Assembly: GCF_003070865.1 (NCBI RefSeq)
Contig: NZ_CP026948.1
Location: 2,170,001 to 2,234,000, forward strand
Length of the DNA: 64,000 nucleotides
Direction of reading: 5' to 3'
From: Corynebacterium liangguodongii
GTDB lineage: Bacteria > Actinomycetota > Actinomycetes > Mycobacteriales > Mycobacteriaceae
Part shown: positions 1-64,000 of the stretch, one piece after another
Layout: each line of letters opens with the position of its first letter
Numbering within the stretch: position 1 is the first letter of the stretch
Made by a program: the position numbers and the translations under genes
Notes under the pieces: model-generated
Told to the model about the DNA's origin: nothing
Databases searched by the model: none
Seen by the model: the letters and a program-made list of their open reading frames with translations, nothing else

Positions 1-2129
1 CGCGCAGAGACATGCCGTGGCGCGGGTACGTGGTCACCCTTTTCTGCCTCGGCTTCGCGCTGCTGGGCACGGCGCACGCTCTCGCGCCGTTATACGACGC
101 CCCCTTGGCCGCCTTCCGCAACCTCCACAAGTTCGACCCCCTCGTGCGCCTGCCCCTCGTCTTAGGCGTCGGCTGGTGCGCATCCCGCCTCCGCCGGCCC
201 GCCGTGGTGGGCGTCGCGCTCGTGAGCGCGGTGGCGCTCGCCCCCGCCTGGTCTCTGCGGCTGCTTCCCGAAGGCACGTGGACCGAGATCTCCCCCGACT
301 GGGTCGCCGCGGGTGCGTGGCTTGACGAACACGCCTCGGGCACCCGCACCCTCGTCGTGCCGGAATCCTCCTTTGCCCGGCAGACGTGGGGGTGGACCCG
401 CGATGAGCCGATCCAGGCCGTGTCCGCCTCCCGGTTCGCGGCGCGCGACGCCATCCCGTTGGTCGATCCGGAGGCGATCCGCGGCCTCGACGGGCAGGTC
501 AGCGCCGTGGATTGGGAGGCGTTGCGCTCCATCGGCGTCGGCGCCGTCGTCGTGCGGCGTGACCTCGCCGCGGGGCCCGAGGTGCCCGACCTCGGCGAGC
601 CCACCGCCCGCTTCGGCGACGTCGAGATCTTCCTGCGCGACCCGGCTCGAGACATGATGATCACCGCCTCGGAGCCCGTCGCCGTCGACGGCGGCGGAGA
701 GGTGCTGCCGTTGCTGTGGGAGCGCTACGGTTATTTCCCGGCGCGCCTGGTCGACTCCGGGGCCCAGATCATCACCGATACCCCTGCCGCCGCGGTACGC
801 AATTACGGCACGCTGGACTCCCCCCTCTCGGCGCAGCTCGCCTCTCCCGCGGAGGGTAGCGACGTGCACAACCGCGTGCCGGACTACCCCTCCGCCGGCT
901 CCCGGGTCGGCGTGTCCATGACCGGCGGCGAGGCCGCGGCCTCCAGCTCTGCCGCCGATGCCACCGCCTTCGGCGGGGCGAAGCCCTCGACCTCTCTCAC
1001 CGCGGCGTTCGACGGCCTTGAGGACACCGCGTGGTGGCCCGCCCCGGGAGACGACACCGCGTGGCTCTCCTCGACGGTCTCCGGCGGGTCGATCACCATC
1101 ACCGCCACCGACGACACCGTGGTGCGCGTGGCCACGGGAGACGGTGCCCGCGAGATCTCCCTCGTCGGAGGCGAGCCCCGCACGGTGCGGGCGGGCGGCG
1201 ACCACGTGCGCGTCGAGCTCACGCAGCGCGTCGGCATCGCGGAGCTAGGCACCGGCGTGCGCCGCGTCGTCGAGGTGCCGGGGACGGCCGATACCTACTT
1301 CTTCCAGCGCTTATTCCCCGCAACCGATGTGGTGCAGCGCCGCTTCACCACCGCCTCCGACGGCGAGTGGGAGTTGAGCGCACCGGCCACCATCGACGGC
1401 GAGCCAGCATCCGGCCGGGTGCATCTGGCCGCAGGGCCCCACGAGGTGCTCACCGATGCCGAGACCATCACCATCTCTCGCGCCAAACCCCTCACCGCGG
1501 CGTGGGAAGCCTTCGACGGCGAGGTGGGCCCGGGCGAGGGCGAGCGGCTCATCCTCACCGCCCGCGCGTTCAACGAGGGGCTGCGCGCGAGCGTCGGCGG
1601 GGTGGAGCTCGCCTCATTGCGTATCGACGCAGGCGCGCAGGCCTTTAGCGTCCCACCCGGGGTCACCGGCCGCTTCGAGATGCACTTCGCCGGCGAGGCC
1701 GCCTACCGCTGGAGCCTCTTACTCGGCTCCGTGATCTCCCTGCTCACGGTCGCCGCCTGCCTCTGGGTTCCGTGGCGCCGCACCGAGTACTGGGCGCCGT
1801 CTACAGGCTCAACGCCCTTATCCCCGCTGCTCGCGGCACTGTGCGTCGGCCTCGCCCCCGGCGCGGCGGCGGTGGCGCTGTGCTGGGTGGTGAGGCGCTA
1901 CACCCTCATCCCCGCCTGCGCTTTAAGCGCCGGCGCCGCTGCGTTCATGGGGCTGTGGCTGGCGCGCTCGCCGTGGCCGGCGGCGGGGTACGCCGGTTTT
2001 AGCGTGCTGGTGACCTTCGCGGGTTGCCTCGCGGTAGCGGCGCTGGCGTGCCCTTCACCCCAAACCCGGATGCCTAAGAATGCGGGTGCTCACCGTAAAC
2101 CCGGACCTAGTTCGGGGTGTCCGAGTTGA
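1..2129 (+). CDS. aftD: AftD-type alpha-(1->3)-arabinofuranosyltransferase, C-terminal part (5' end outside window)
   Basis: Membrane glycosyltransferase that adds branching arabinofuranose residues in arabinogalactan/lipoarabinomannan, using decaprenyl-phosphoryl-arabinose outside the cell membrane. The frame is open to the left edge, so the start lies upstream; about 705 residues are visible. The visible N-terminal part has membrane segments and the stretch FRNLHKFDPLVRLPL, typical of the DUF3367/AftD family. A long extracytoplasmic region rich in beta-type sequence follows (about 200-550), consistent with the carbohydrate-binding modules of AftD, then a C-terminal membrane block (about 570-680). 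The 3' end overlaps the converging acyltransferase gene by 23 nt. Neighbours (acyltransferase, DUF3068, glycosyltransferase, methyltransferase) match the mycobacterial Rv0224c-Rv0236c region. Family assignment is strong; linkage specificity is inferred from the family. Confidence 0.88.
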   Translation, partial: RRDMPWRGYVVTLFCLGFALLGTAHALAPLYDAPLAAFRNLHKFDPLVRLPLVLGVGWCASRLRRPAVVGVALVSAVALAPAWSLRLLPEGTWTEISPDWVAAGAWLDEHASGTRTLVVPESSFARQTWGWTRDEPIQAVSASRFAARDAIPLVDPEAIRGLDGQVSAVDWEALRSIGVGAVVVRRDLAAGPEVPDLGEPTARFGDVEIFLRDPARDMMITASEPVAVDGGGEVLPLLWERYGYFPARLVDSGAQIITDTPAAAVRNYGTLDSPLSAQLASPAEGSDVHNRVPDYPSAGSRVGVSMTGGEAAASSSAADATAFGGAKPSTSLTAAFDGLEDTAWWPAPGDDTAWLSSTVSGGSITITATDDTVVRVATGDGAREISLVGGEPRTVRAGGDHVRVELTQRVGIAELGTGVRRVVEVPGTADTYFFQRLFPATDVVQRRFTTASDGEWELSAPATIDGEPASGRVHLAAGPHEVLTDAETITISRAKPLTAAWEAFDGEVGPGEGERLILTARAFNEGLRASVGGVELASLRIDAGAQAFSVPPGVTGRFEMHFAGEAAYRWSLLLGSVISLLTVAACLWVPWRRTEYWAPSTGSTPLSPLLAALCVGLAPGAAAVALCWVVRRYTLIPACALSAGAAAFMGLWLARSPWPAAGYAGFSVLVTFAGCLAVAALACPSPQTRMPKNAGAHRKPGPSSGCPS

Positions 2130-3138
2130 GGGGGAAGCGGCCGTGCCGCCACCCCCGCACGAGCCGCGCGCCCGGTACCTCCACGAGCTCGTAGGAGACG
2201 TAGGCGAGCGCCACGCTGCCCGCAACGGTCGCGGCCCACACGAGCGCGAAGTGCCCGCCGAACACCGGCACCCCGAGGACGGGAAACACTAGTGCGAGCA
2301 CCCACACGTGCCAGAGGAAGAGGGAATACGACCACCTCCCCAGCGCCACCGCCACGGGGGAGGCAAGCACACCGCGCGAGCGCGGGCCGAGCGCGAAGGG
2401 TGCCACAATGAGCGCCGCGAAGGCCGCGCCGAGGATGATGCGCGCGTTGAACTGCGCCGGGGAGGGGTGCGCCAGCCCCTCCGGGCCGAGGACCCCTGCG
2501 ATCCAGGCCACCGGCAGCCCCAGGGCCGCGACCGGCCAGCGCGGGCCGCGGTAGCGTATGCCGAGGCGCTCGAGCTCAGCGAGGATGAGTCCAACGGCGC
2601 ACCACAACACGTAGGACGGCGGCCAGATCTGCAGGTTGACCGCATCAACGCCCGCGACGAGCCAGGGCCAGGCGAGAGAGGCCGGGATGGATAGTGCGAG
2701 GGCGAGGGTCCGCAGGGGCGTCGATAAGCGAAGATAGAGCGGTAAGACGAGGTAGAAAGCGACCTCGACGCACAGCGACCACATCTGGGTCAGCCCGGCG
2801 ACGAGGCCGTCGGGCACGTAGATCTGGACCAGGAAAACCTGGGCCAACGCCTGGGACCACGAGATCCCGGCAAGCTCGGGCAGGCTCGCCAGCACGACGG
2901 CGACGCACACGAGGTAGGCCGGGGCGAGGCGGGCGAGGCGGCGCCGGTAGTAGCCCGGGCGCAACCCGCCGCGCGCCAACAGGAAGGCAGAGAGCGCGTA
3001 GAAGACCGCGACGAAGTAGTCGAGCCGCTCGAGCACCGGGTGATACGTCGCCGTTTGGAAGGCGACATGAGTGGTGAGGATGCCGAGGGCGGCAACCGCG
3101 CGCAGGCCAGCGAGTTCGGGAAGTAGAGTGGTAGCGAT
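2107..3138 (-). CDS. tmaT: Membrane acyltransferase family 3, TmaT-like (trehalose mycolate acetyltransferase)
   Basis: Polytopic acyltransferase-3 protein. In this conserved locus the family member TmaT acetylates trehalose monomycolate before MmpL export. Visible hallmarks are PELAGLRAVAALGILTTH near the N-terminus (membrane helix with the family histidine), about ten hydrophobic segments, and a short C-terminal tail. The start is a problem: the conserved N-terminus is reached with no ATG, GTG or TTG at the expected place. The nearest ATG (3273) would add 45 atypical residues lying antisense inside the next gene. I place the start at an in-frame ATC (3138-3136) because it sits 6 nt after a TACACT hexamer, giving 343 residues; this is inference. 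The gene is divergent from the DUF3068 gene and its 3' end overlaps aftD. The function comes from family and locus, not from any specificity motif. Confidence 0.75.
   Translation of the reverse strand: MATTLLPELAGLRAVAALGILTTHVAFQTATYHPVLERLDYFVAVFYALSAFLLARGGLRPGYYRRRLARLAPAYLVCVAVVLASLPELAGISWSQALAQVFLVQIYVPDGLVAGLTQMWSLCVEVAFYLVLPLYLRLSTPLRTLALALSIPASLAWPWLVAGVDAVNLQIWPPSYVLWCAVGLILAELERLGIRYRGPRWPVAALGLPVAWIAGVLGPEGLAHPSPAQFNARIILGAAFAALIVAPFALGPRSRGVLASPVAVALGRWSYSLFLWHVWVLALVFPVLGVPVFGGHFALVWAATVAGSVALAYVSYELVEVPGARLVRGWRHGRFPLNSDTPN
3124..3129 (+). promoter_or_regulatory. Candidate -10 element (TAGAGT) of the DUF3068 gene
   Basis: TAGAGT matches the actinobacterial TANNNT -10 pattern and ends 9 nt before the ATG at 3139, the spacing expected for a leaderless transcript. 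It lies inside the coding region of the divergent acyltransferase gene. No clear -35 is visible. Confidence 0.35.
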
Positions 3139-3864: not shown

Positions 3865-5236
3865 CGCGTTGGGGGCCTACGCCGCCGCGCTGGTCATCGC
3901 CCTGACCTGGCCGTTCATGGTCCCCGGGGAGGCGTTCGCACTACGCGACATGGTGGTGGTGCCCGAGATGGCGCTGACCCATGCGGCGTTGGGTTTCGGG
4001 GATTTGCCCGCGCGCAACGTGCCGCAAGACGCCGTGTTGGCGCTGGTGCCGTGGCCCGTGCTCGCGGCCCGCGCCATCGTCATCGGCTCCGCGTGTGCGG
4101 CCGCCTACGCGGGTTTTCGTGCCGGGACCTCAACCTTCGGCCGCGCCGCCGCGATGACGGTCGCGGTGTGGAACCCCTTTGTCGTTGAGCGCCTGCTCCA
4201 AGGCCAGTGGTCGCTAGCCGCCGCGGCGTGGCTTGTGCCGTTTATCGCCCTCGCGGCGCGTGGGATCGGCCCCATCGTCGGCTCATGGGTTGCCTCGCTC
4301 ACCCCGACCGGGGCGCTTGCCGCCCTAGCGCTCGCGCGCACGCGGGGCCAGGCGCTGGCCTGCGCGCTGTGCTGCGCCCCGTGGGTAATAGCGGGCTTTC
4401 TCGCTACCGGGACGGGGACGGCCTCTCCGGCCTCGAGCACGGCCTTCGCCCCGCGCGCTGAGAGATGGGTGGGCACCCTCGGCGCCATGGCCGGGCTTGG
4501 TGGGATATGGAATGCGGAGGCCAGCCCGGCCTCGCGCGGTGCCGGGTTCGCCGTGTTCGGGGTGGTCCTGGCTATCGTCCTTGCGGGCGGGTGGCGCGCC
4601 GTGTCGCCGCGCCTGCGCGTGCTGGCGGTGGTTGGGTTCGCCCTCGCCGTGGCGTCCTGGCTGGGGCTCGTCGGGCTCGTGATCGGGTGGCTGCCCGGCG
4701 CGGGGCTGCTGCGCGACGGGCAGAAGTGGCTCATTCTTGCCATCCCCGCATTCGTCTCGGCCGCCGGGGCGCTGCGCCCGCGCGTCGCCGCCGTGGCCTG
4801 CGCGTGTGCGCTGCTCCAGGTGCCCGACGCGCCGGCCGCGGTAAGCCAGTTGCGCCCCGCGCGCGTGGAGCTTCCCGCCATCGACGATCGCGGCCGCGAC
4901 GTGCTGTTCGTCGATAGGCCCGGCCTGCTCTCCCGCGCCGACGGCGTGCCTGTGGTCGATCCCGCGACGAAGGCGTTCAACGTCGTCGAGTCGGGCGAGC
5001 TGCGTATCGACGCCCGCGTCGTCGACGCCCCCTCCCCCCGCTGGCAGGCCGCGCAGGCGCGGCCCGGGGACCTCGACTACCTCGCTGACCTTGGCATCGG
5101 TGTCGTGGTCTACCCCGACGGGCGCGTGGTTGTAACCGGGGCGCCCGCCCGCGGGCCGGAGCCTGTGGGCCTTGCTTTGCTCGCGCTGTGGTGCGTCGCT
5201 CCCCTCGCCAGCCGCCTTAAGTTAACGAAAGATTAA
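3851..5236 (+). CDS. Polytopic membrane protein of the aftD/mmpL3 locus (Rv0226c-like)
   Basis: Integral membrane protein of 461 residues and unknown activity. It starts at TTG 3851, overlapping the last 14 nt of the DUF3068 gene, so the pair is probably translationally coupled. Alternating hydrophobic segments fill residues 1-320 (roughly ten helices). A soluble stretch of about 100 residues follows (about 330-430), then a last hydrophobic segment. The arrangement, with an extracytoplasmic tail domain after many helices, resembles lipid-linked-sugar-dependent GT-C proteins, but I see no diagnostic acidic motif, so that is only a suggestion. Synteny with mycobacterial Rv0226c next to Rv0227c supports a conserved envelope role. 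Confidence 0.78.
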   Translation: MRAASALGAYAAALVIALTWPFMVPGEAFALRDMVVVPEMALTHAALGFGDLPARNVPQDAVLALVPWPVLAARAIVIGSACAAAYAGFRAGTSTFGRAAAMTVAVWNPFVVERLLQGQWSLAAAAWLVPFIALAARGIGPIVGSWVASLTPTGALAALALARTRGQALACALCCAPWVIAGFLATGTGTASPASSTAFAPRAERWVGTLGAMAGLGGIWNAEASPASRGAGFAVFGVVLAIVLAGGWRAVSPRLRVLAVVGFALAVASWLGLVGLVIGWLPGAGLLRDGQKWLILAIPAFVSAAGALRPRVAAVACACALLQVPDAPAAVSQLRPARVELPAIDDRGRDVLFVDRPGLLSRADGVPVVDPATKAFNVVESGELRIDARVVDAPSPRWQAAQARPGDLDYLADLGIGVVVYPDGRVVVTGAPARGPEPVGLALLALWCVAPLASRLKLTKD

Positions 5237-6070: not shown

Positions 6071-7159
6071 TCACCTGCGCTCCCCCGCCGACCGCGCGAC
6101 GCCCGCCAGGATTTCCTCGAAGCGCCGACCGGTGGCCTCCCAGGAGAAGCGCCCCGCCCATTCGGCGGCGCCGCGGCCGAGGCGGGCGCGCAAGGGGGCG
6201 TCGTCAAGCAGACGCACAATGGCCGCGCGGAAGTCCGCCTCGCCGCCCACGAGCAGGCCCGTCTCCCCGTCGATGATGGAATCGCGCAGCCCCCCGGCGC
6301 TGAGGTAGCCGATCGTGGGCACACCGTGCTGCGCGGCCTCAATGACCGCGATCCCCCAGCCCTCCTTCACGCTCGGCATGAGGTGGACCGCGGCGCGGGC
6401 GAGAACGGCGTGCTTGTAGTCGTCGTTGACGTGCCCGTGGAAGACCACCGTGTCGCCGAGGCCCGCGGCGTACGCGCGCAGCTCGTCTTCCCACCACCCG
6501 GAGCCAATCACGTCGAGCACGACGCCGTCGAGCCCGCGCACGGCATCGATCGCCTGCTCGATGCGCTTGTGGGGCACGAGCCGCGACAAGGTCACCAGGT
6601 GCACGCGCCCGTCCTCGGCCAGAATCGGGGTGCGCGCCGGCACGGGGTCAACCCCGTTGTGCACCACCTCAATACCCTCCTCCCGCACGCCGAGGCCCAC
6701 GAGGTCCCGCCGGGAGGCATCGGAGACCGTGATGTAGCGCGCCCCGCGATAGACCCTTGGCGCGACCCGGGACTCCAAGAACCTGCCCAGCCTGCCGATC
6801 ACCGGGCCGGCCACGGGCCACTGCGGCAGGTGGCAGTGATGGGTGAGCAGCACCACGGGCGCGCGCGAGTAGAGCCGGGCGAAAAACGGGATGCCGTTTT
6901 GGGTATCCACGATGACATCGGGGCGGTGGCGCCAGACCGAAAACGGCGCGGCGAGATAGACCCCGTACTTGCCCCCGGCGCGCTCGATGCGCACCCCGTT
7001 TTTGCTGCTGCGCTTTGGTGCGTCGGTGTGCAAGGAGGTGCGCAGCACAACGTCGTGGCCCCTGGCGGCGAGGTATTCGCCCACGCGCTCGAGGTAGCGC
7101 TCGGAACCGCCGCCTTGCGGGTGGGTCATGTCGCGCCAGCACAGCAGCAGTATCTTCAT
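6071..7159 (-). CDS. GT4-family glycosyltransferase (Rv0225-like)
   Basis: Cytoplasmic GT-B fold glycosyltransferase, 362 residues from ATG 7159 (MKILLLCWRDMTHPQGGGSE). The glycine-rich acceptor-side loop PQGGGSERYLE lies at about 12-22. The nucleotide-sugar domain carries LVTLSRLVPHKRIEQAI and the family EX7E region (KEGWGIAVIEAAQHGVP). It is the second glycosyltransferase of the conserved aftD-TmaT-MtrP locus, where a homologue is syntenic in mycobacteria and C. glutamicum; the substrate is not established from sequence. Its start is only 4 nt from the start of the divergent methyltransferase gene, and a TACGGT -10-like hexamer ends 8 nt before the ATG, so a leaderless transcript is likely. 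Confidence 0.88.
   Translation of the reverse strand: MKILLLCWRDMTHPQGGGSERYLERVGEYLAARGHDVVLRTSLHTDAPKRSSKNGVRIERAGGKYGVYLAAPFSVWRHRPDVIVDTQNGIPFFARLYSRAPVVLLTHHCHLPQWPVAGPVIGRLGRFLESRVAPRVYRGARYITVSDASRRDLVGLGVREEGIEVVHNGVDPVPARTPILAEDGRVHLVTLSRLVPHKRIEQAIDAVRGLDGVVLDVIGSGWWEDELRAYAAGLGDTVVFHGHVNDDYKHAVLARAAVHLMPSVKEGWGIAVIEAAQHGVPTIGYLSAGGLRDSIIDGETGLLVGGEADFRAAIVRLLDDAPLRARLGRGAAEWAGRFSWEATGRRFEEILAGVARSAGERR
7151..7156 (+). promoter_or_regulatory. Candidate -10 (TATCTT) of the methyltransferase gene
   Basis: TATCTT followed by 7 nt and then GTG 7164. It lies inside the first codons of the divergent glycosyltransferase gene and supports the GTG over the upstream ATG at 7128. Confidence 0.4.
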
Positions 7160-7163: not shown

Positions 7164-7934
7164 GTGTACCGTACCCGTCGGCTAGCCACGCTTTCCCGTT
7201 CGCTTCGCCTCCTGCGCTCGTTTAGCTACGAGCAGTATCGCCCGGGCATCTTCTACGGCGGGCTAGCGCGCGATACCGCGCAGCTTATCGACGCCTTGTG
7301 GACCGACCTCACAGGCTCGCGCCTGCCGGGAGCCTCCGTCCTCGACGTCGGCGGCGGCCCCGGCTACTACGCCGCAGAATTCGCCAGGCTCGGCGCCTCC
7401 TATGTCGGCCTCGAACCGGACGTATCCGAGCTCACCGCGGCCGGCCTGAGCGGCTACGGCGCGGTGCGCGGCGACGGCGCGGCCCTCCCCTTTGCCGATT
7501 CCTCCTTCGATGTCGTCTACTCCTCAAACGTCGCCGAGCACATCCCGAACTGGCGGGAGATGGGCGAGGAGATGATCCGGGTGTGCTCCCCCGGCGGGCT
7601 CGTCGTGCTCAGCTACACCGTCTGGTTGGGCCCGTTCGGCGGCCACGAGACGGGGCTGTGGCCGCATTATGTCGGCGGCGAGTTCGCGCGGCGCCGCTAC
7701 GAGAGGCGGCACGGCCGAGAGCCGAAAAACGTCTGGGGCAGCTCGCTGTTCGCCGTGAGCGCCGCGGACGGCCTGCGCTGGGCGCGCTCCACGGGGCTTA
7801 TGCGATTCGCCTTCCCGCGCTACCACCCGCGGTGGGCGTGGTGGGTGGCAAAGGTGCCCCTCCTGCGCGAATTTGCCACCTCCAACCTCGTGGTGGTGCT
7901 GCGCGCGCCCGGGGGCAGCGGCGGCCCGGCTTAG
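7164..7934 (+). CDS. mtrP: SAM-dependent methyltransferase, MtrP-like
   Basis: Class I methyltransferase of 256 residues from GTG 7164. It has motif I ([16 protein letters not shown]), the acidic end of strand 2 (GLEPDVSEL), a motif with [16 protein letters not shown], and a C-terminal helical region. In the corresponding C. glutamicum and mycobacterial locus the homologue MtrP is needed for transport of trehalose monomycolate, apparently through an acetylated/methylated intermediate step; that role is transferred by synteny. A longer start at ATG 7128 would overlap the divergent glycosyltransferase by 32 nt. The 3' end converges on pckG, and the two stop codons overlap within TTAG (7931-7934). 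Confidence 0.82.
7168..7173 (-). promoter_or_regulatory. Candidate -10 (TACGGT) of the glycosyltransferase gene
   Basis: Minus-strand TACGGT ends 8 nt before ATG 7159. With the TATCTT element on the other strand this makes a compact head-to-head promoter pair. Confidence 0.35.
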
Positions 7935-10966: not shown

Positions 10967-11662
10967 ATGAGCATGAACGACCTCCACGAAATCACCCACC
11001 CGTACTCCCCCGGCGCCCAGAAGGGGCCCGATAGCTACCTGCTGGTGTGGGACGCCCCCAACCTGGACATGGGGCTCGGGGCCATCCTCGGCGGCCGGCC
11101 CACCGCCGCCTACCGCCCGCGTTTCGACGCCATCGGGCGCTGGCTCATCTCTAAGGCCGACGAGGCCGCCGCGGCCCAGGGCGAGCCGGTCGAACCGGAG
11201 GCGACCGTCTTTACCAACATCGCGCCGCAGGGCGCGGACGTCGTGCGCCCCTGGGTCGAGGCGCTGCGCAACGTCGGCTTCGCCGTCTTTGCCAAGCCGA
11301 AGATCGACGACGCCTCCGACGTCGATAAGGACATGCTCGCCCACATCACGCGCCGGCGCGACGAGGGGGTGCTGCGCGGCCTCGTCGTCGCCTCCGCCGA
11401 CGGACAGAACTTCCAGCCCATGATCGAGGACCTGCTTGAGGACTCGATCCCGGTCACCGTCATCGGCTTCCACGAGCACGCCTCCTGGGCGGTGACAAAC
11501 CCCCGGTTCGACTTCGTTGACCTCGAAGACATCCCGGGCGTGTTCCGCGAGCCGCTGCCGCGCGTCAACCTCGACGCACTGCCCGACGAGGGCGCATGGC
11601 TGCAGCCGTTTAGGCCGCTGAGCTCGCTGCTCAATTCCCGCAGCGGCGCGAACCACGCCTAG
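10967..11662 (+). CDS. NYN-domain protein (Rv0207c-like)
   Basis: 231-residue protein of the NYN/PIN-like nuclease superfamily. The N-terminal LLVWDAPNLDMGLGAILGG carries the first conserved Asp and Asn (about residues 29-33). Further acidic positions include DDASDVDKDM (about 121-130) and VVASADGQNFQPM, the layout of metal-dependent RNases of the PIN-like fold. Whether it is active is not known. It sits between trmB and cmpL1 with 20 nt to the latter and is syntenic with mycobacterial Rv0207c. The start is ATG 10967; a second ATG two codons later is possible. Confidence 0.85.
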   Translation: MSMNDLHEITHPYSPGAQKGPDSYLLVWDAPNLDMGLGAILGGRPTAAYRPRFDAIGRWLISKADEAAAAQGEPVEPEATVFTNIAPQGADVVRPWVEALRNVGFAVFAKPKIDDASDVDKDMLAHITRRRDEGVLRGLVVASADGQNFQPMIEDLLEDSIPVTVIGFHEHASWAVTNPRFDFVDLEDIPGVFREPLPRVNLDALPDEGAWLQPFRPLSSLLNSRSGANHA

Positions 11663-41324: not shown

Positions 41325-42599
<1,275 letters not shown>

Positions 42600-52201: not shown

Positions 52202-52801
52202 TCACAGTGCGTGCTCGCCCCACTTCACCACCCGCCACGAGCCGAACTCGCCCACCGGGTCGATGACCAGGTAGTGGCAGTTGGGCAGGTAGGCCGCCTG
52301 GGCGAACTCGGGGTCGACATCGCAGGCGTTGGCCGCGAACGCCCTGATCGCCCCGCCGTGGGAGACGGCGACTGTGTCGCCGGCCTCGCTTACGTAGGGC
52401 TCCAGGGAGGAGCGGTAGCGGTTGAGGAAGACGGCGAGGGAGTCCCCGCCGTCGATAAGCGCGGCGAGATCGCGCCGGTAGAATCCGGCAAACGCGCCGT
52501 GGTAGGCGGCGTGGGCCTCGAGCGTGTTGTGCATCTCAAAGCGGCCCGCCTGAACCTCGTGGAGCCCCGGCAGGGCGGGGATGTCCGCGAAGTGCGCGCC
52601 GAAGGCGATCCGCCCGGTCTGGCGGGCCCTTAGCGCCTGGGAGGTCACCACCCGCGCGGGGCGATAGGCAGACATGATCTCCTCGCCGGCGGCCGCTGCC
52701 TGGCTGCGGCCAAGGTCGGTGAGCTCCGCGCCGGGCAGCGCCGTATCCAGGTAGCGCCCGACGTTGGAGGTGGTTTGCCCGTGCCTGAGCAAAATCAGCA
52801 T
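52202..52801 (-). CDS. Histidine phosphatase family protein (Rv3837c-like)
   Basis: 199-residue branch-1 histidine phosphatase. The N-terminal LILLRHGQTTSNVGRYLDTA carries the catalytic RHG; VAVSHGGAIRAFAAN holds the second His. The upstream pheA gene ends at 52802, so there is no gap and the start follows directly. Often labelled phosphoglycerate mutase, but the real substrate is not known. Confidence 0.88.
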   Translation of the reverse strand: MLILLRHGQTTSNVGRYLDTALPGAELTDLGRSQAAAAGEEIMSAYRPARVVTSQALRARQTGRIAFGAHFADIPALPGLHEVQAGRFEMHNTLEAHAAYHGAFAGFYRRDLAALIDGGDSLAVFLNRYRSSLEPYVSEAGDTVAVSHGGAIRAFAANACDVDPEFAQAAYLPNCHYLVIDPVGEFGSWRVVKWGEHAL

Positions 52802-53723: not shown

Positions 53724-54443
53724 ATGTCAACGCGCCCGGCGCGGATCCGCCTGGAGATCCTCATCGTCCTCGCCGTCACCTTCGGCCTGTCCGGGGTACG
53801 CTCCATCCTCAAGCTTATCGACGCCTACGTGGCCGCCCCTGCCCTCAACCTCCAAAAGGTCACCCTCAACGGCACCGCGTCAACTATTAGCTGGCTCGAC
53901 CTCGCGCTGCAGGTCTGCTCGGCGGCCTCGCTTCTCTCCTGGGGAGCGCTCGCCCTCTACCTCCTCGGCGAGCGCCTGCCGCACCCCCGGGGTCGCGACT
54001 GGCTGTGGGGCGCGGGCCTGGCCGCGCTCATCGGGATCCCCGGGCTCGCCCTCTACGTCACGGCGGTGCACATGGGCTGGTCAAAGGAGGTCGTGCCCGC
54101 CACCGAAACCACGCAGGTGCCCACGCTGCTCATCTGGTCGTTCGCGAACGCCTTTGCGGAGGAGACGGTCGTCGTTACCTGGTTTGTCGTAAGGCTCCGG
54201 CAGCTGGGGTGGCACCCGGCGGCGGCGATCGCGTCCTCGGCGGTCCTGCGCGGCAGCTACCACCTCTACCAGGGGGTATCTGCGGGTTTCGGCAACATCG
54301 TCATGGGGGTGGTCTTCGCCTCCTTCTTCCACCGCACGGGCAAGATATGGCCGCTCATCCTCGCGCACTTCCTTATCGACGCCGTGGCATATCTCGGCTA
54401 CCTTGCCTTAGACCTTTCCTGGTTGGGAATAAAGCCGGGCTAG
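53724..54443 (+). CDS. CPBP-family intramembrane metalloprotease-like protein
   Basis: 239-residue membrane protein with about six hydrophobic helices. The CPBP (CAAX protease/bacteriocin-processing) motifs are present in the actinobacterial form: EETVVVTWFVVRLRQLGW (Glu-Glu; the usual EEXXXR arginine is absent at its normal place), RGSYHLYQG with the conserved His, and HFLIDAVAYLG with His and Asp. Its role is unknown; relatives process or protect membrane proteins. The stop overlaps the -10 of the next gene. Confidence 0.85.
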   Translation: MSTRPARIRLEILIVLAVTFGLSGVRSILKLIDAYVAAPALNLQKVTLNGTASTISWLDLALQVCSAASLLSWGALALYLLGERLPHPRGRDWLWGAGLAALIGIPGLALYVTAVHMGWSKEVVPATETTQVPTLLIWSFANAFAEETVVVTWFVVRLRQLGWHPAAAIASSAVLRGSYHLYQGVSAGFGNIVMGVVFASFFHRTGKIWPLILAHFLIDAVAYLGYLALDLSWLGIKPG

Positions 54444-54453: not shown

Positions 54454-55725
54454 ATGCCGACCTCTCCTCACTCGAACGACCCCAGGGACAACCTGGGGGA
54501 TTACGTGCTAGGCAAGGACGGAAAACCCATCGTCGACCGCTACGGCCGCCCGGTGCGCCGCCGCGTGACCGGCACACAGCCCCCGGCACAGCGCCCAACG
54601 CAGCGCCCAACGCAGTACCCCGCGCAGCGCCCGACGCAGTACCCCGCGCAGCGCCCAGCGGAGCCGACCCGGCGCTACGAGCACACCCGCGTGGAGCAGC
54701 CGAGCTACGTGCCGCGGCGCCCGCCCCAGCTGCCCCCGCGCCAACCCGAGCCGGCGCCGGCACCGCTCCAGGTCTCGCGCTCGCGGGTGCGCACCGCCCC
54801 GCGCCCGCCTGCGCCCCCGCGCCCGCGCAGGCGCCGCAGAGCGCCCGGCTGCTTTTCCCTCATCGCGCTGCTGCTCGCAATCGCCGTCGCCGCGCTCGTG
54901 CTTATCGACGCCCGACTCGCCCGCGTCGACGCCCTGCCCGACGAGCGGATCGCCAACACCGCCGGAACGAACTGGCTGCTGGTCGGCTCCGACTCGCGCC
55001 AGGGTTTGAGCGAGGAAGACATCGCCCGCTACGGCACCGGTGGCGACCTCGGGGTGGGTCGCACCGACACCATCATGCTGCTGCACCTGCCGCGATCGGG
55101 CAAGGCCACGCTGATCTCCATCCCGCGCGACTCCTACGTGGAGATCCCCGGGTACGGGATGGACAAGATCAACGCATCCTTCGCCTACGGCGGGCCGAAG
55201 CTGCTCGCCGCGACGGTCGAACAGAACACCGGGCTGCGCGTGGACCGCTACGCCGAGATCGGCATGGGCGGCCTCGCCGGCGTCGTCGACGCGATCGGCG
55301 GGGTGGACATCTGCGTCACCGAGCCGATCCAGGACCCACTGGCGAACCTGTCCGTCGAGCCTGGTTGCCAGAAGATGGACGGGGCGACCGGCCTGGGCTA
55401 CGTGCGCACGCGCGCCACCGCCCAAGGCGACCTCGATCGCGTCGGGCGCCAGCGCGAGTTCCTCTCCGCAATTGTGAGCGCGGTGACGTCGCCACGCGTG
55501 CTGCTCAACCCGCTGCGCTCGATCCCTCTGGCGCTCGCGCTGCCGAAGATGTTTACGGTCAACACCGGCGACCACATCTGGGACCTCGCCCGGGTGGCGC
55601 TGGCGATGCGCGGCGGGATCGCGACGGAGACCGTGCCGCTCGGAGGATTTACCGACACCGAGGTCGGAAGCGTCATCCTGTGGGACGATGCCGCCGCCGA
55701 GGCGCTGTTTTCCTCCCTGCGCTAG
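54454..55725 (+). CDS. LytR-CpsA-Psr (LCP) family glycopolymer ligase
   Basis: LCP proteins attach arabinogalactan to peptidoglycan. It has 423 residues: a cytoplasmic N-terminus (about 1-125) that is Pro/Arg/Gln-rich with a six-fold 12-bp repeat (54589-54660), one membrane helix (about 130-150), then the LCP domain (about 165-420) with NWLLVGSDSRQG, the phosphate-binding RTDTIMLLHL, SIPRDSYVEIPG and VRTRATAQGDLDRVGRQREFL. There is no LytR_C extension. It fits with the other arabinogalactan genes in the window. A terminator follows. Confidence 0.93.
   Translation: MPTSPHSNDPRDNLGDYVLGKDGKPIVDRYGRPVRRRVTGTQPPAQRPTQRPTQYPAQRPTQYPAQRPAEPTRRYEHTRVEQPSYVPRRPPQLPPRQPEPAPAPLQVSRSRVRTAPRPPAPPRPRRRRRAPGCFSLIALLLAIAVAALVLIDARLARVDALPDERIANTAGTNWLLVGSDSRQGLSEEDIARYGTGGDLGVGRTDTIMLLHLPRSGKATLISIPRDSYVEIPGYGMDKINASFAYGGPKLLAATVEQNTGLRVDRYAEIGMGGLAGVVDAIGGVDICVTEPIQDPLANLSVEPGCQKMDGATGLGYVRTRATAQGDLDRVGRQREFLSAIVSAVTSPRVLLNPLRSIPLALALPKMFTVNTGDHIWDLARVALAMRGGIATETVPLGGFTDTEVGSVILWDDAAAEALFSSLR
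54589..54660 (+). repeat. Six 12-bp tandem repeats in the LCP gene
   Basis: Units CAGCGCCCAACG/CAGTACCCCGCG and close variants, exactly six in a row, encoding QRPT-QRPT-QYPA-QRPT-QYPA-QRPA in the cytoplasmic tail. Length change would stay in frame. Confidence 0.85.
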
Positions 55726-55822: not shown

Positions 55823-57397
55823 CTAGGAGGTGACCACCGTCGAGCCACCGGAGCGGCCCGTCTCTGCGTCACCTGCAGCCTGCTGCTGCCAGGTGCCGGC
55901 TGCGATCATTTCGCGCTTGCGCTCCACCCAGTAGTCTGCGCCCTTGATACCCAAGGCCTCCGGGTCGAACTGCGGGTCGAGGCCGGCCTTTTTCTGGCGG
56001 CGGTAATCCCACAGGCATTTCAGTGCCGGTCCCTGGATGACCAGGATGGCGAGGATGTTCAACCACGCGGTGGCGCCGACACCGATATCACCAAGCGCCC
56101 AGGCGGTACCCGGGGTGGTGGTTGCGCCGATGTAAACCGAGATGAGGATGAGCAAGCGCAGCACCCAGATGATCGCGCGGCGCGCCACGTCGCTGTGGAC
56201 CCATCGGTTGAGGTAGGCGAAGTTAACCTCGGCGAGGTAGTAGTAGGCCAGCACCGTGGTGAAAGCGAAAAACATGATTGCGAGGGCAACAAACGAGGGG
56301 CCGATTCCCGGTGCAACCGTGTTCATGCCTTCCTGGACGAATCCCGGGCCGACGTCGATGCCGTCGGGAAGCGAACCCGCGTAGCGCACCGCACCGTCCT
56401 CGGATTGGCCCTCGAAAACCTTGTACATGTCGGTGGAGATGATGATGAACGCCGTTGCCGAGCACACGAACAGCGTATCGACGTAGACGGCAAAGGCCTG
56501 CACGAAGCCCTGCTTGGCCGGGTGGGAGACCTCGGCCGCGGCCGCGGACTGCGGTCCTGTGCCCTGGCCGGCTTCGTTGGAGTAGATGCCGCGCTTGACG
56601 CCCCAGAGGATTGCGGCACCGAGCATGCCGCTAAACATCGCCTCGCGGTCGAACGCGGAGCGGAAAATGAGGCCGAAGACCTCGGGGATCTGGCTCGCGT
56701 TGGAGAACAGAATCCACAGGGCGGCCAGGATGTAGATGACCGCCATGACGGGCACAACCAGCGAGGCGAAGGTGGCGATGCGCTTCACGCCACCGATGAC
56801 GATGATGCCGAGTAGCACCACCATGGCAATCCCGGAGATCCAGGTCGGCACCGTCCACGCGTTCTCGACGGCCGCGGCCACACCATTGGCCTGGATGCCG
56901 GGCAGGAAGTAGGAGGTGGCCAGGATCATGCAGATGGCGAAGATCACGGCGTAGACCAGGGCGAAGGAGCGCGCCTTGGTGTGCGCGCCTGCTTTTTCGA
57001 TGTAGAATGCCGGCCCGCCACGGTACTCACCGGTGTCGCGATCTTTCTCCTTGTAGATCTGGGCGAGCGTACATTCCACGAAGGAGGTCGCGGAGCCCAT
57101 CAGGGCGACGAGCCACATCCAGAACACCGCACCAGGGCCGCCGAACGCGATGGCAGTGGCAACACCTGCAATGTTGCCCACACCGACGCGGCCGGCAAGT
57201 GAGATCATCAGCGATTGGAACGAGGAGATGCCAGATTCGGACTTCTCCCCCTGCGAGATCTGCTTGATCATGTCGGGAATGCAGCGGATCTGCAGGAACA
57301 GCGTGACGATAGTGAAGTACGCGCCCGCACCGAGGCACAGGTACACGAGCCAGTTCGACCAGATCAGGCCGTTGAGTGTTTCAATTATCCCATCCAT
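55823..57397 (-). CDS. Sodium:alanine symporter (AGCS family)
   Basis: Amino-acid carrier of the alanine/glycine:cation symporter family, 524 residues, about eleven hydrophobic segments. The family motif GGPGAVFWMWLVALMGSATSF and the NEAGQGTGP loop are present. ATG 57397 has GGGAGGGAG about 10 nt upstream. The C-terminal tail (about 480-524) is polar. It shares a 270-nt region with the divergent YjiH gene. Transport of alanine or glycine is inferred from the family. Confidence 0.92.
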   Translation of the reverse strand: MDGIIETLNGLIWSNWLVYLCLGAGAYFTIVTLFLQIRCIPDMIKQISQGEKSESGISSFQSLMISLAGRVGVGNIAGVATAIAFGGPGAVFWMWLVALMGSATSFVECTLAQIYKEKDRDTGEYRGGPAFYIEKAGAHTKARSFALVYAVIFAICMILATSYFLPGIQANGVAAAVENAWTVPTWISGIAMVVLLGIIVIGGVKRIATFASLVVPVMAVIYILAALWILFSNASQIPEVFGLIFRSAFDREAMFSGMLGAAILWGVKRGIYSNEAGQGTGPQSAAAAEVSHPAKQGFVQAFAVYVDTLFVCSATAFIIISTDMYKVFEGQSEDGAVRYAGSLPDGIDVGPGFVQEGMNTVAPGIGPSFVALAIMFFAFTTVLAYYYLAEVNFAYLNRWVHSDVARRAIIWVLRLLILISVYIGATTTPGTAWALGDIGVGATAWLNILAILVIQGPALKCLWDYRRQKKAGLDPQFDPEALGIKGADYWVERKREMIAAGTWQQQAAGDAETGRSGGSTVVTS

Positions 57398-58987: not shown

Positions 58988-59925
58988 CTACCGCCCGCCG
59001 CCAGGTGCGCGGCCACGATGTCGTCGATAAGCCGCGCCGCGGTTTTTGCCGTGCGGCCATCGATGTCGAAGGCGGGGTTGAGCTCGACGACGTCGACAAG
59101 GCCGAGGCGCCCGGTGCCGGCGACGGCGACGGCCATCGCGCGAATCTTCTCCAGCGCCACGCCCAGGCCCGCGGGGGCGGACACGCCCGGGGCGACGTAG
59201 GCGGGCAGGACGTCGAGGTCGATGCTCAAGTGGATCGGGCGCTGGCCCTCAACGCTGTCGAGGGCGAGGTGGGCGCACTCGCTGAGGCTCAGCGCCTCCA
59301 GCTCGGTGTCTAACACCGTGCGCACCCCGAGAGTTGCGGCGGCGTCGAAGAGCACCTTGGTGTTGTTGGGCCGGGAGATGCCGAGCACCGAGTAGTTGAA
59401 GGCGTCGCCGGCAAGCCGGGCGATCTGCCGAAACGGCGTGCCGGAGGTGGGCCGGTCTGCCTCGCGCAGGTCGAAGTGGGCGTCGAAGTTGATCACGCTC
59501 ATATCGCCCAGCGCCTCGCGCGCCCCGCGGTGGGAGGCGAACGAGGTCTCGTGGCCGCCGCCGAGGACGACGACCAGGTGTCCGGCGGAGGCCAGCTCTG
59601 TCACGCGCGTACTGAGCTCCGCCTGGGCGCCCTCAAGGTCGTCGCCCTGGGTGGTCACGGTGCCGGCGTCGATGCGCGGGGCGTCGTCGTGGATGGCCAG
59701 GCTACCGAGCGCGGTGCGCAGCGCCTCGGGCCCGGCGGCAGCGCCCTGGCGCCCGCCGTTGCGCAGCACACCCTCGTCGGAGGCAAACCCGATCAGCGCG
59801 ACACCGCCGGCGGGCGCTTCAGAGGAGATCACGCTGTGCCAGCGGGCGTGCTCGGGCCCGGGGCCGTCGTCACGCCCGCTCCACTTTCCGGCGGGGACGT
59901 ACAGCGGCGCGGTAACGGTGTTCAT
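58984..59925 (-). CDS. hutG: Formimidoylglutamase, arginase family
   Basis: Hydrolyses N-formimidoylglutamate to glutamate and formamide at the end of histidine catabolism. It has 313 residues from ATG 59925 (MNTVTAPLYVP). The binuclear Mn site is intact: GGGHETSFASHRG, INFDAHFDLRE, and LSIDLDVLPAYVAPG. The clustering with a permease, an IclR regulator and hutH favours hutG over arginase or agmatinase. TAGTCT ends 7 nt before the start. Confidence 0.9.
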   Translation of the reverse strand: MNTVTAPLYVPAGKWSGRDDGPGPEHARWHSVISSEAPAGGVALIGFASDEGVLRNGGRQGAAAGPEALRTALGSLAIHDDAPRIDAGTVTTQGDDLEGAQAELSTRVTELASAGHLVVVLGGGHETSFASHRGAREALGDMSVINFDAHFDLREADRPTSGTPFRQIARLAGDAFNYSVLGISRPNNTKVLFDAAATLGVRTVLDTELEALSLSECAHLALDSVEGQRPIHLSIDLDVLPAYVAPGVSAPAGLGVALEKIRAMAVAVAGTGRLGLVDVVELNPAFDIDGRTAKTAARLIDDIVAAHLAAGGS

Positions 59926-59938: not shown

Positions 59939-61360
59939 TGCGCCATCGCGCGCGGGCGCGTACCCACCGGGCACGGGGTTGTTCACACCCTCGACCTTGT
60001 GGCGGCCGGTGGCGTAGTACATGGCGATGCAGGCGACGCTGAAGACCACACCCACGGCCAGAGGGGTGCGGAAGTCCGGCTGCCACGCCATCACGCCGAA
60101 GGTGAAGAGGATGAACGCCAGGGCGAAGTACTGCCCCACCGGCCAAAACGGGACGCGGTATTCAAGCTCCGCCGCCTCGGACGGGGTCATGCGGCGCCGG
60201 GAGGCCAGGTGGGCGAGCAGGATCATTGCCCAGACGAAGATGGTGGCGAAGGTGGCCAGCGCGGCGATCAGCGCGAAGACGGACTCGGGGATGACGGCGT
60301 TGAGCACCACCCCGACGATCAGCACGGCCAGCAGGATCACCGTAGTCATCACCGGCACACCGCGCACCGTCTTAGACATCACCTGCGGGGCGAGGCGCTG
60401 GTTGGCTAGCCCTGTGAGCACGCGGCCGGCGCCGAAGATGTCGGCGTTGATGGCTGACAGGGCTGCGGTGATCACGATGACATTAAGTAGGGCGGCGGCC
60501 CAGTTCACGCCGAGCGCAGTGAAGATCTGCACGAACGGCGATTCCTCGCCGGTGATGGTGTGCCAGGGGTTGATCATCAAGATGATCAGAATCGCGAGCA
60601 CGTAGAACAGCAGGATGCGCGCGGGCACGGTGTTAATCGCCTTCGGGATCGCGCGCGATGGTTCATCGGCCTCGGTGCCGGCCACGCCGATGATCTCGGT
60701 GCCGCCGAAGGCGAAGAGCACGAGGATGAAGGATGCCGCCATGCCGGAGATACCGTTGGGGAAGAACCCGCCCTCATTGATGAGGTTGGCCGGGCCCGTA
60801 GTCTCCGCGTTGGACAACCCGAAAATGAGCACGGCCGCGCCCGCGGCGATCATCGCCACCACCGCGCCGACCTTGACGATGGTGAACCAGAACTCCAGCT
60901 CGCCGAACACGCGTGTCGACGCCACATTCGCTGCGCCGACGATCAATAGCGCCACGACAATCCACACCCAGCGCGAGACGTCCGGGAACCAAAAGCCCAT
61001 GTAGATGCCAATGGCGGTGAGGTCCGCCATGGCCACAATCACCATTTCGAAGGCGAACATCCACCCGGTGAGGAAGCCCGCCGCTCCACCCAGGTGGGCT
61101 CGGGTGTATTCCGCGAACGAGCCGCGCACGGGGTGGCGCACGGCCATCTCGCCGAGCGCGCGCAGCACGAAGTACACCACGGCGCCGCCGAGCAGGTAGA
61201 CCAGCAGGACCGACGGGCCGGCGGCCTGGATGGCGCCGGCGGAGCCGTAGAACAACCCGGTGCCGATGGCGGAACCGAGCGCGATGAAGTGGAGGTGGCG
61301 CGAGGTCAGGCCGCGTCCCTCGGTGTGGACCGGGGTGCCACTGGGCTGAATCGTTGTCAT
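59936..61360 (-). CDS. APC-family amino-acid permease, probable histidine transporter
   Basis: 474-residue amino-acid permease with twelve hydrophobic segments. The N-terminal HFIALGSAIGTGLFYGSAGA and the RHPVRGSFAEYTR loop are typical of the AAT subfamily. Substrate inferred as histidine (HutT-like) from the hut context; the AAT family includes aromatic, proline and histidine carriers, so this is not certain. ATG 61360 is chosen; TAGACT ends 8 nt upstream. hutG follows after 10 nt. Confidence 0.88.
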   Translation of the reverse strand: MTTIQPSGTPVHTEGRGLTSRHLHFIALGSAIGTGLFYGSAGAIQAAGPSVLLVYLLGGAVVYFVLRALGEMAVRHPVRGSFAEYTRAHLGGAAGFLTGWMFAFEMVIVAMADLTAIGIYMGFWFPDVSRWVWIVVALLIVGAANVASTRVFGELEFWFTIVKVGAVVAMIAAGAAVLIFGLSNAETTGPANLINEGGFFPNGISGMAASFILVLFAFGGTEIIGVAGTEADEPSRAIPKAINTVPARILLFYVLAILIILMINPWHTITGEESPFVQIFTALGVNWAAALLNVIVITAALSAINADIFGAGRVLTGLANQRLAPQVMSKTVRGVPVMTTVILLAVLIVGVVLNAVIPESVFALIAALATFATIFVWAMILLAHLASRRRMTPSEAAELEYRVPFWPVGQYFALAFILFTFGVMAWQPDFRTPLAVGVVFSVACIAMYYATGRHKVEGVNNPVPGGYAPARDGA

Positions 61361-61368
61361 GGCTGGGA

Positions 61369-61374: not shown

Positions 61375-61416
61375 AGACACGTTTTCCTCTTACTGTGATT
61401 TGTCTTTCTTTGCCCT

Positions 61417-61432: not shown

Positions 61433-61439
61433 TCGTCGT

Positions 61440-62204: not shown

Positions 62205-62347
62205 GCCCCATAGAAAAACCCTCCGCAGCCAGTCCGCTGAACGGGTAACTTGTCTTCCCTGGAGCTCGAAATCTCGCCCGCCAACAGGACCCTGATTTCG
62301 AGAACCAAGGGCTCACCCGCCAATGGGTATATACGAAGGTTTTCCCG

Positions 62348-62569: not shown

Positions 62570-62601
62570 CCCCCCCCTAGCGCCCCACCCCACCCACCGG
62601 C

Positions 62602-62607
62602 TACACT
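62602..62607 (+). promoter_or_regulatory. Candidate -10 (TACACT) of hutH
   Basis: TACACT 95 nt before ATG 62703, leaving a leader of about 85-90 nt. No clear -35. Confidence 0.3.
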
Positions 62608-62646
62608 TATCCCCGTCGCGTCTGGCTGTCGCGCGTTTGAACAACT

Positions 62647-62666
62647 CCGGCCCCGCGTAGGGCCGG
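62647..62666 (+). promoter_or_regulatory. Leader hairpin upstream of hutH
   Basis: CCGGCCC-CGCGTA-GGGCCGG, a 7-bp GC stem 37 nt before the hutH start. No T-run follows; a leader structure or attenuation role is possible. Confidence 0.4.
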
Positions 62667-62702
62667 TTCACGCACGCATTCCTACAAACGCAAAGGACAG
62701 CC

Positions 62703-64000
62703 ATGACCACCACGTACCCCTCCACCGTCACCGTCGGCATCGGCGCGCTCACCATCGATGAGGTCGTTGCCGTCGCCCGCTACGGCGCCTCCGTCGAGAT
62801 CGACCCGGCCGCTCTCGAGGAGGTCGCCGCCACCCGCGACCGCATCGAGGAGCTGGCCAACGACCCGACCCCCGTCTACGGCATCTCCACCGGCTTCGGC
62901 GCACTGGCACGCCGACACATCCCCGAGGCGATGCGCGCTCAGCTGCAGCTTTCCCTCGTGCGCTCCCACGCCGCCGGCTCCGGCCCGGAGGTGGAGCAGG
63001 AGGTGATCCGCGCGCTGATGCTGCTGCGCCTGTCCACCCTGTGCACCGGGCGCACCGGCGTACGCCCGGTGGTCGTGGAAACCTACGCCGCCGTGCTCAA
63101 CGCGCACATCACCCCGGTCGTGCGCGAGTACGGCTCGCTCGGCTGCTCCGGCGACCTCGCACCTCTCGCCCACTGCGCCCTGGCCCTGCTCGGCGAGGGC
63201 GAGGTGCGCGTCAACGGCGGGGAGATCGTCCCCGCGGCGCAGGCGCTTGGCGACGCCTCCATCGAGCCGCTCGCGCTGAAGGAGAAGGAGGGCCTGGCGC
63301 TGATCAACGGCACCGACGGCATGCTCGGCCAGCTCTGCCTGGCCATCACGGACCTGCGGGAGGCCGCCAAGGTGGCCGACATCGCCACCGCCATGACCGT
63401 GGAGGGGCTGACCGGCACGCTCACCGTCTTCGCCGATGACCTGCAAAAGTTGCGCCCGCACCCGGGCCAGGCCGACGCCGCCGCCAACATCCGCGCGGTG
63501 GCCCACGGCTCGGAGATCCTTGACGCCGCGGCTACGGAGTTCAAGCAGAAGCAGGTCCAGGACGCCTACTCGGTGCGCTGCGCGCCACAGGTCGCCGGCG
63601 GGTTCCGCGACACTATCGCGCACGCCGAGCTGGTGGCGGGCCGCGAGCTCGCGTCGGCCGTGGACAACCCCGTCGTGGCGCTCGACGGCCGGGTCAGCTC
63701 CAACGGTAACTTCCACGGCGCGCCCGTGGCCTACGCGCTGGACTTTTTGGCCATTGTGGTCGCCGATCTGGCGTCGATAAGCGAGCGCCGCACGGACCGC
63801 TTCCTGGACACCGCGCGCAACCGCGGGCTCAACGCCTTCCTTGCCGACGACCCCGGCGTGGATTCCGGACACATGATCGCGCAGTACACGCAGGCCGGCA
63901 TCGTCAGCGAGCTCAAGCGCAACGCGAACCCGGCCTCGGCGGACTCGATCCCGTCCTCGGCGATGCAGGAAGACCACGTCTCGCTCGGCTGGTCGGCGGC
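62703..64000 (+). CDS. hutH: Histidine ammonia-lyase (3' end outside window)
   Basis: Deaminates histidine to urocanate, the first step of histidine breakdown. ATG 62703 with AAAGGA upstream; 432 codons are visible with no stop. Family sequence VYGISTGFGALA, LIRSHAAGSG-type helix (LVRSHAAGSGPE), GTDGMLGQL, and the Tyr/Gln region near SSNGNFHGAPVA. The cofactor triad, which self-cyclises to MIO, reads Cys-Ser-Gly (GSLGCSGDLAPLAH) where the textbook enzyme has Ala-Ser-Gly. The catalytic Ser and Gly are intact, so activity is expected. hutU and hutI are not in the window. Confidence 0.95.
   Translation, partial: MTTTYPSTVTVGIGALTIDEVVAVARYGASVEIDPAALEEVAATRDRIEELANDPTPVYGISTGFGALARRHIPEAMRAQLQLSLVRSHAAGSGPEVEQEVIRALMLLRLSTLCTGRTGVRPVVVETYAAVLNAHITPVVREYGSLGCSGDLAPLAHCALALLGEGEVRVNGGEIVPAAQALGDASIEPLALKEKEGLALINGTDGMLGQLCLAITDLREAAKVADIATAMTVEGLTGTLTVFADDLQKLRPHPGQADAAANIRAVAHGSEILDAAATEFKQKQVQDAYSVRCAPQVAGGFRDTIAHAELVAGRELASAVDNPVVALDGRVSSNGNFHGAPVAYALDFLAIVVADLASISERRTDRFLDTARNRGLNAFLADDPGVDSGHMIAQYTQAGIVSELKRNANPASADSIPSSAMQEDHVSLGWSA

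Follow-up and report, generated by a model that had tools for sequence, protein, structure and literature searches.

We know of no tag by which cells recognise self-DNA in natural transformation beyond the Gram-negative families Neisseriaceae and Pasteurellaceae. The DNA uptake sequences (DUS) of Neisseriaceae are described as having thousand-fold copy number, core-genome location and clade dialects with a conserved core (PMC3630211). For the known uptake sequences, a second source reports that one orientation is commoner in reading frames and that there is no general orientation bias (PMC2346458). Here we analyzed a stretch of 64,000 nucleotides from Corynebacterium liangguodongii, the window (positions 2,170,001-2,234,000 of a single-contig genome of 2,357,924 bases, called G000), in which an initial annotation had noticed an iterated 11-mer and likened it to uptake sequences. 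The 11-mer proved to be part of a longer motif, made of two blocks, that is enriched throughout the chromosome and whose core is enriched across much of the genus. We consider it likely that corynebacteria use this motif as a DNA uptake sequence, or as a closely similar tag marking self-DNA for gene exchange.

The motif resembles the DUS in word length, copy number, core-genome location, clade dialects around a core and the lack of a general orientation bias. It differs in its actinobacterial host with a Tad-type pilus, whereas DUS hosts have type IVa pili and ComP, and also in its word, in the two blocks split by free bases and in coding copies that are denser than intergenic ones; uptake of the corynebacterial motif is proposed from sequence. 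With the uptake signal sequences (USS) of Pasteurellaceae it shares the non-palindromic form and a commoner orientation in reading frames (PMC2346458). Word, envelope and pilus type are different. The density is also similar to that of USS, but there is little excess of one-mismatch forms here, unlike in H. influenzae. Described Chi sites are likewise chromosomal, overrepresented and non-palindromic; they are short and oriented, whereas the motif is longer, bipartite and without strand polarity. HIP1 of cyanobacteria is also highly iterated across a clade, but it is a palindromic octamer, and the corynebacterial motif is non-palindromic and has dialects.

In the window, the core TATCGACG occurs 27 times against 1.77 expected from dinucleotide shuffles (none of 100 reached 27) and the extended 11-mer GC(T/G)TATCGACG 21 times against 0.10. 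The initial annotation had given 25 against about 1.3 and 20, respectively, and had placed the end coordinates correctly at 1622 and 63779. Genome-wide counts are also far above expectation, with 351 copies of the 11-mer (179 + 172) and none of the reversed pattern that served as the control for each word. Each position was varied in turn in sampled DNA of G000, which comprised the window and 20 further stretches (464 kb, of which 457 kb were counted after masking 7.1 kb around an array of clustered regularly interspaced short palindromic repeats, CRISPR). This showed that the 11-mer is a subset of a wider bipartite motif of 13 positions, GCKTNNCGACGNC, i.e., GCKT-NN-CGACG-N-C. The AT of the first word (positions 5 and 6) is free, with any base 4-fold to 53-fold in excess; position 12 is likewise free and position 13 is a fixed C. 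The 11-mer is thus enriched as claimed, but its exact form did not stand.

The full motif has 39 copies in the window (Table 1) and 1,198 in the genome (609 + 589), against 39 (16 + 23) for the reversed control. The 457 kb contain 249 copies where an order-4 Markov model predicts 14.2, and 200 scrambles of the motif that preserve its letters and spacing gave a mean of 5.2 and a maximum of 37. Most single-base changes at fixed positions brought the count to background; the largest leftover excesses were 3.4-fold for A at position 13 and approximately 2-fold when position 1 was C or T or when position 2 was A. The variant GCKCNNCGACGNC, which uses commoner codons, was at background level in the sampled DNA (54 vs. 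56 expected). Density is one copy per 1.8 kb in the 457 kb and approximately one per 2 kb genome-wide, and is somewhat higher in the window (0.61 per kb) than in the genome on average (0.51 per kb). Whatever its function, a 13-bp word approximately 17-fold over the Markov expectation, with a core marking 150 of 201 genomes, needs a cause.

The motif is non-palindromic, and its flanks beyond positions 1-13 hold at most 0.48 bit of information per position. Because no sequence is conserved beyond the core word, we rejected a dispersed repeat type such as a repetitive extragenic palindrome (REP), a miniature inverted-repeat transposable element (MITE) or CRISPR. The masked CRISPR array lies outside the window at L103:2396-9291 (genome ~2,092,400-2,099,300); it gave 114 matches to a repeat piece and swamps k-mer statistics if left unmasked. 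Unsupervised refinement of the motif with a position weight matrix drifted into codon periodicity and was dropped, and word counting was used instead.

By the revised gene calls, the 249 sampled copies comprise 165 sense, 75 antisense and 8 intergenic copies and one at a gene edge. Some genes of the first calls were wrong or missed, as seen with Pfam; the revised calls, used for the repeat test, are still approximate. When synonymous codons were shuffled within genes, so that proteins and codon usage stayed intact, a mean of 16.7 and a maximum of 25 copies remained in 100 shuffles, against 241 in the 432,120 coding bases, and the first gene calls gave the same outcome (230 vs. 18.0). All six frames were above their shuffled means: sense frame 2 with 155 versus 4.8, antisense frame 2 with 44 versus 0.5, antisense frame 0 with 26 versus 9.7, sense frame 0 with 6 versus 0.2, antisense frame 1 with 6 versus 0.4 and sense frame 1 with 4 versus 1.1, the last equal to its shuffle maximum. 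In the favored frame, xxG-CKT-NNC-GAC-GNC, the free positions fall where amino acids can vary. Because the shuffles leave only 16.7 of 241 copies and all six frames exceed expectation, codon usage does not explain the motif, as the initial annotation had argued, and the enrichment is a DNA-level feature. Neither of the refuting outcomes named in that annotation, a genome-wide count near expectation or an account by codon-pair usage, thus occurred. The annotation's ratio of 18 sense to 7 antisense core copies was not reproduced; the first gene calls gave 14 sense, 11 antisense and 2 intergenic.

Conservation in relatives at the base level, which had also been raised, finds some support. In the pks13 region, where a relative has the same amino acid, a CTT or CGT codon inside the motif is kept in 91 of 223 cases, versus 224 of 1,863 for other such codons; the comparison covers 69 named loci with shared ancestry and few distinct sites and therefore counts as support, not as a significance test.

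Among the sampled stretches in contig order, GC skew was positive for 9 of the 10 at the start and negative for 10 of the remaining 11; this locates the origin close to position 0, with the terminus at about 1.18 Mb. The sampled copies in G000 divide into 131 on the leading and 118 on the lagging strand, and hence show no replication polarity, in agreement with the initial annotation. An FtsK-orienting sequence (KOPS), for which strong polarity towards the terminus is expected, was rejected on this split. Spacing is slightly more even than random, with a coefficient of variation (CV) of the gaps of 0.87 versus 0.99 (95% range 0.89-1.11) and 16 gaps below 200 bp versus 26 (18-35). Copies less than 60 bp apart form five pairs among 228 gaps, all of them inverted (minus then plus). 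In DUS, inverted pairs between genes, often terminators, are frequent though not universal; here close pairs number only these five, and intergenic density is below coding density. The pairs lie at L090:9157, L092:3171, L093:18199, L097:12768 and L101:4319; two overlap, forming one inverted repeat.

Table 1. Copies of the full motif in the window (coordinates within the window, strand in brackets; ORF, open reading frame)
Copy	Position	Strand	Context
GCTTATCGACGCC	2717..2729	(-)	
GCGTATCGACGCC	5002..5014	(+)	
GCTTGACGACGCC	6197..6209	(-)	
GCTTATCGACGCC	7283..7295	(+)	
GCGTTTCGACGCC	11119..11131	(+)	
GCTTGACGACGTC	13123..13135	(-)	
GCTTGTCGACGCC	14849..14861	(+)	
GCTTCTCGACGCC	16402..16414	(-)	
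GCTTTTCGACGCC	18137..18149	(+)	
GCTTGCCGACGCC	18525..18537	(-)	
GCGTGACGACGCC	22389..22401	(-)	
GCTTATCGACGCC	23250..23262	(+)	antisense in 1,598-aa ORF 22468-27264 (pks13)
GCTTATCGACGCC	26881..26893	(-)	sense in pks13 ORF 22468-27264
GCGTATCGACGCC	26984..26996	(+)	antisense in pks13 ORF 22468-27264
GCTTATCGACGAC	30134..30146	(-)	
GCTTGACGACGCC	30449..30461	(+)	
GCTTGACGACGAC	34783..34795	(-)	
GCTTATCGACGTC	37337..37349	(-)	
GCTTATCGACGCC	37896..37908	(+)	
GCTTGGCGACGAC	38854..38866	(+)	
GCTTATCGACGCC	41495..41507	(-)	
GCTTTACGACGCC	42051..42063	(-)	
GCTTCTCGACGCC	42525..42537	(+)	
GCGTGCCGACGGC	42986..42998	(+)	
GCGTGTCGACGGC	44740..44752	(-)	
GCTTATCGACGCC	45304..45316	(+)	
GCGTATCGACGCC	46798..46810	(+)	
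GCGTATCGACGCC	47318..47330	(-)	
GCGTATCGACGGC	51730..51742	(+)	
GCTTATCGACGGC	52448..52460	(-)	
GCTTATCGACGCC	53813..53825	(+)	
GCTTATCGACGCC	54900..54912	(+)	
GCGTGGCGACGTC	55485..55497	(-)	
GCTTCCCGACGGC	56360..56372	(-)	
GCTTATCGACGAC	59020..59032	(-)	
GCGTGACGACGGC	59863..59875	(-)	
GCGTGTCGACGCC	60911..60923	(+)	
GCTTGGCGACGCC	63245..63257	(+)	sense in aromatic amino acid lyase gene 62703-63998
GCTTATCGACGCC	63770..63782	(-)	antisense in aromatic amino acid lyase gene 62703-63998

Across the genus we counted a looser core, GCTTNNCGAYG, and called genomes carriers if it was at least 4-fold over the reversed control, weak at 2-4-fold and non-carriers below 2-fold. Among 201 Corynebacterium genomes, 150 were carriers, 9 were weak and 42 were non-carriers. 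Carriers have hundreds to approximately two thousand copies each, and the orientation totals of the 150 are 85,480 forward and 85,605 reverse. In 140 genomes from other genera of the family the ratio of core to control ranged from approximately 0.2 to 2.7 (highest in G297), and the stricter GCKTATCGACG had at most 37 copies; of 198 genomes sampled across the phylum, G000 was the only one with more than 20 copies of this stricter word. A scan for pks13 kept 72 loci, of which 69 are from Corynebacterium. The nearest to the window are those of C. lipophiloflavum (78% protein identity), the sister of G000 in the pks13 tree, and C. senegalense (76%). In this tree of 70 rows, 15 rows below the density threshold are scattered among carriers; each label comes from approximately 25 kb or less, and single labels are uncertain.

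The spelling of the second block differs between clades. The repeated word of G006 is GCTTnnCGATG, and in 11 genomes GCKTNNCGATGNC reaches 479-1,184 copies, the CGACG form being limited to 20-189, whereas G000 has 42 CGATG and 1,198 CGACG copies. The two spellings are thus nearly exclusive of each other. Two further genomes (G073 and G200) have approximately 200 copies of GCKTNNCGATGNC. A TadA tree of 40 genomes places all 11 genomes with the CGATG spelling in a single region, together with one CGACG genome and one non-carrier; the branching order within this region is unresolved. The otherwise free position 12 is A in 16 of 18 copies in a C. lubricantis locus and in 21 of 28 in a C. pilosum locus, a small sample of 25 kb each. 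Mixed spellings occur in G142 (1,184 CGATG with 189 CGACG) and in locus L082 of C. glucuronolyticum (20 CGACG and 7 CGATG core copies), and are possibly switches in progress.

The motif is scarce outside the chromosome. We searched 19 plasmid-sized contigs (3-145 kb) of carriers, taking at most 20 kb from the start of each and 337,315 bases altogether, with expectations taken from each genome's own rate. The full motif in the matching dialect occurred 3 times against 104.6 expected and the looser core 15 times against 124.4, with 7 for the reversed control. A twentieth contig, with 5 copies against 6.3 expected, proved to be a chromosome. Five of the 19 contigs were looked up, and each is identical (100%) to a catalogued plasmid (from C. 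doosanense, C. deserti, C. occultum, C. atrinae and C. comes); a MobF relaxase is encoded by at least two of them. Lower GC content is not the reason for the scarcity, because chromosomal loci of 25 kb with 57-58% GC carry 14 (C. propinquum), 12 (C. pseudodiphtheriticum) and 10 copies (C. silvaticum). The corynephages BFK20 and phi674, whose hosts may or may not carry the motif, have no full motif and one core in 86 kb.

In G000, a gene for ComEA (with SLBB and HHH domains) adjoins that for ComEC, and a Tad locus encodes an ATPase, two T2SSF proteins, a DUF4244 pilin-like protein, a TadE-like protein with no Pfam match and a Tad protein. The predicted ComEA, ComEC and Tad pilus are of the kind treated as competence genes in Micrococcus luteus, a naturally transformable actinobacterium for which the source names tadA1, tadA2 and comEA (PMC6667448). 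ComEC is present in 200 of the 201 Corynebacterium genomes. In a set of 78 genomes, made up of 31 carriers and 47 chosen as weak or non-carriers (by core count 36 below 2-fold, 6 at 2-4-fold and 5 above 4-fold), the Tad ATPase was found in 77 (missing in the carrier G021), an HHH_3 (ComEA) match in all 78, with another HHH protein of approximately 800 residues matching too, and a prepilin peptidase match in 77, 74 of them above the curated cut-off. Being near-universal, these genes and ComEC were rejected as discriminating between carriers and non-carriers. The genome with no prepilin peptidase match, G137, is a carrier of the CGATG dialect and has one HHH_3 match only, as if part of the machine had been lost recently.

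The 12 non-carriers in the TadA tree form a deep separate clade of 8 (L136-L142 and L147, vs. L128-L135; branch 0.78) and four scattered genomes. A diverged Tad ATPase was rejected as the cause of motif absence, since other non-carriers have the ordinary form. Several Flp-like pilins of the deep-clade non-carriers have long N-terminal extensions in open frame. Single-query BLAST recovered the TadE-like protein from all 28 carrier loci and from 5 of the 12 non-carrier loci, and transitive clustering of called genes recovered it from 7 of 8 and 10 of 12, respectively; recovery in 10 of 12 non-carriers points to divergence, not absence. We also correlated residues with dialect in nine proteins, using 27-28 carriers for the Tad-locus proteins and 21 for ComEA and ComEC. 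The correlations follow phylogeny and are uninformative because the CGATG genomes are related.

We favor an uptake sequence because the motif is non-palindromic, unpolarised, present about once per 2 kb, scarce on plasmids and conserved in place, has dialects around a fixed core and is repeatedly absent. The likeness to uptake sequences first noted in the window gained support from the scarcity on plasmids and phages, the dialects and the restriction to the genus. In the mechanism we propose, a surface receptor, most likely a Tad-type pilus subunit or ComEA, would preferentially bind free DNA of a related cell carrying GCKT-NN-CGAYG, which would be moved inward by ComEA and ComEC and then recombined into the chromosome. 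Tagged fragments would enter more often, so that copies would accumulate and be kept in genes of the chromosome but scarcely on plasmids or phages. With drift of the receptor's preference a new spelling would spread through a clade, and with loss of specificity the copies would decay. In its fullest form, that of a genus-wide uptake sequence in Corynebacterium, Gram-positive bacteria with a mycolic-acid envelope, having the two-block core GCKT-NN-CGAYG, dialects and repeated losses and being read by a Tad-type pilus, the proposal is one we lean towards.

Of the other options named in the initial annotation, a Chi site and a nucleoid-protein site fit less well than an uptake sequence, and a modification motif probably does too. 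Strong over-representation would not be expected for a restriction-modification site. A Chi-like recombination signal, at which an AdnAB/RecBCD-type helicase-nuclease would alter its activity during break repair and chromosomal copies would be selected, accounts for a chromosomal motif that is scarce on plasmids and phages, and species-specific variants would follow drift of the enzyme. We regard it as unlikely, as the leading-strand bias is absent (131:118) and ten fixed positions in two blocks exceed any Chi that we know of. A chromosome-organising site, evenly spread and bound by a nucleoid protein, condensin loader or segregation factor, would fit the slightly even spacing (CV 0.87 vs. 0.99) and the plasmid scarcity. 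Known systems of this type have tens of sites or are polarised, and the motif is non-palindromic, most sampled copies lie in coding sequence at a codon cost and the core is below 2-fold in 42 of the 201 Corynebacterium genomes, which makes such a site quite improbable. A tag that marks chromosomal DNA for export or conjugal transfer, like the clt-like repeats read by actinobacterial TraB translocases, and that is selected in the donor would as a self-exchange function give the same distribution, dialects and losses; that plasmids hardly carry the motif, and that at least two of the identified ones have a gene for a MobF relaxase, leaves this a very slim prospect. A by-product of codon-pair, peptide or mutational bias is scarcely credible: the favored frame does put the free positions at replaceable codon positions, but the shuffles (16.7 vs. 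241; antisense frame 2, 44 vs. 0.5) and the background level of GCKCNNCGACGNC with its usual codons (54 vs. 56) speak against it, and a mutational bias would have to spare the plasmids of the same cells, which hardly carry the motif.

Several observations count against an uptake sequence. No natural transformation of a corynebacterium came up in our searches of open papers. Intergenic density is below coding density, with 8 copies in 29 kb versus 241 in 432 kb (18 in 51 kb intergenic by the first gene calls), whereas DUS are described as being tolerated particularly well in intergenic DNA (PMC3630211). One-mismatch forms are barely enriched (285 vs. ~251 in synonymous shuffles, first gene calls), fewer than we would expect from slow decay under drive alone, and may mean that maintenance is stronger or specificity sharper than under drive alone. 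All 47 genomes chosen as weak or non-carriers have matches to Tad ATPase, HHH_3 and prepilin peptidase, so that gene presence does not separate them from carriers, and the residue-dialect correlation across nine proteins identified no receptor.

We found no report of an uptake sequence in corynebacteria in open papers, subscription journals being mostly uncovered, and a literature search with the letters of the motif gave no paper on it among the matches listed. According to a paper on M. tuberculosis gene transfer, uptake sequences have not been reported for mycobacteria (PMC10526031). If the motif is an uptake sequence, much of the genus would be, or would recently have been, naturally transformable, and hidden natural competence is predicted. 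A tag of this kind, with a Tad-type pilus as its reader, would to our knowledge be the first outside Neisseriaceae and Pasteurellaceae, and sequence-selective DNA uptake would have evolved independently in a Gram-positive lineage. Tagged donor DNA would provide a genetic handle for a genus of industrial producers, commensals and pathogens. The dialects and scattered losses among 201 sequenced species amount to a natural experiment for finding the receptor.

We also looked for another iterated word in the non-carriers G014, G039, G146 and G162, in 80 kb each (up to 96 kb), a sample in which a less dense word could escape. The search returned codon-like words in G039 and G162 and a tandem repeat within one stretch of G014. 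In G146, which lacks the motif, loci L117, L119 and L120 contain a dispersed repeat, GGCAGGCCAA, often followed by AAC, with 9 copies in approximately 96 kb.

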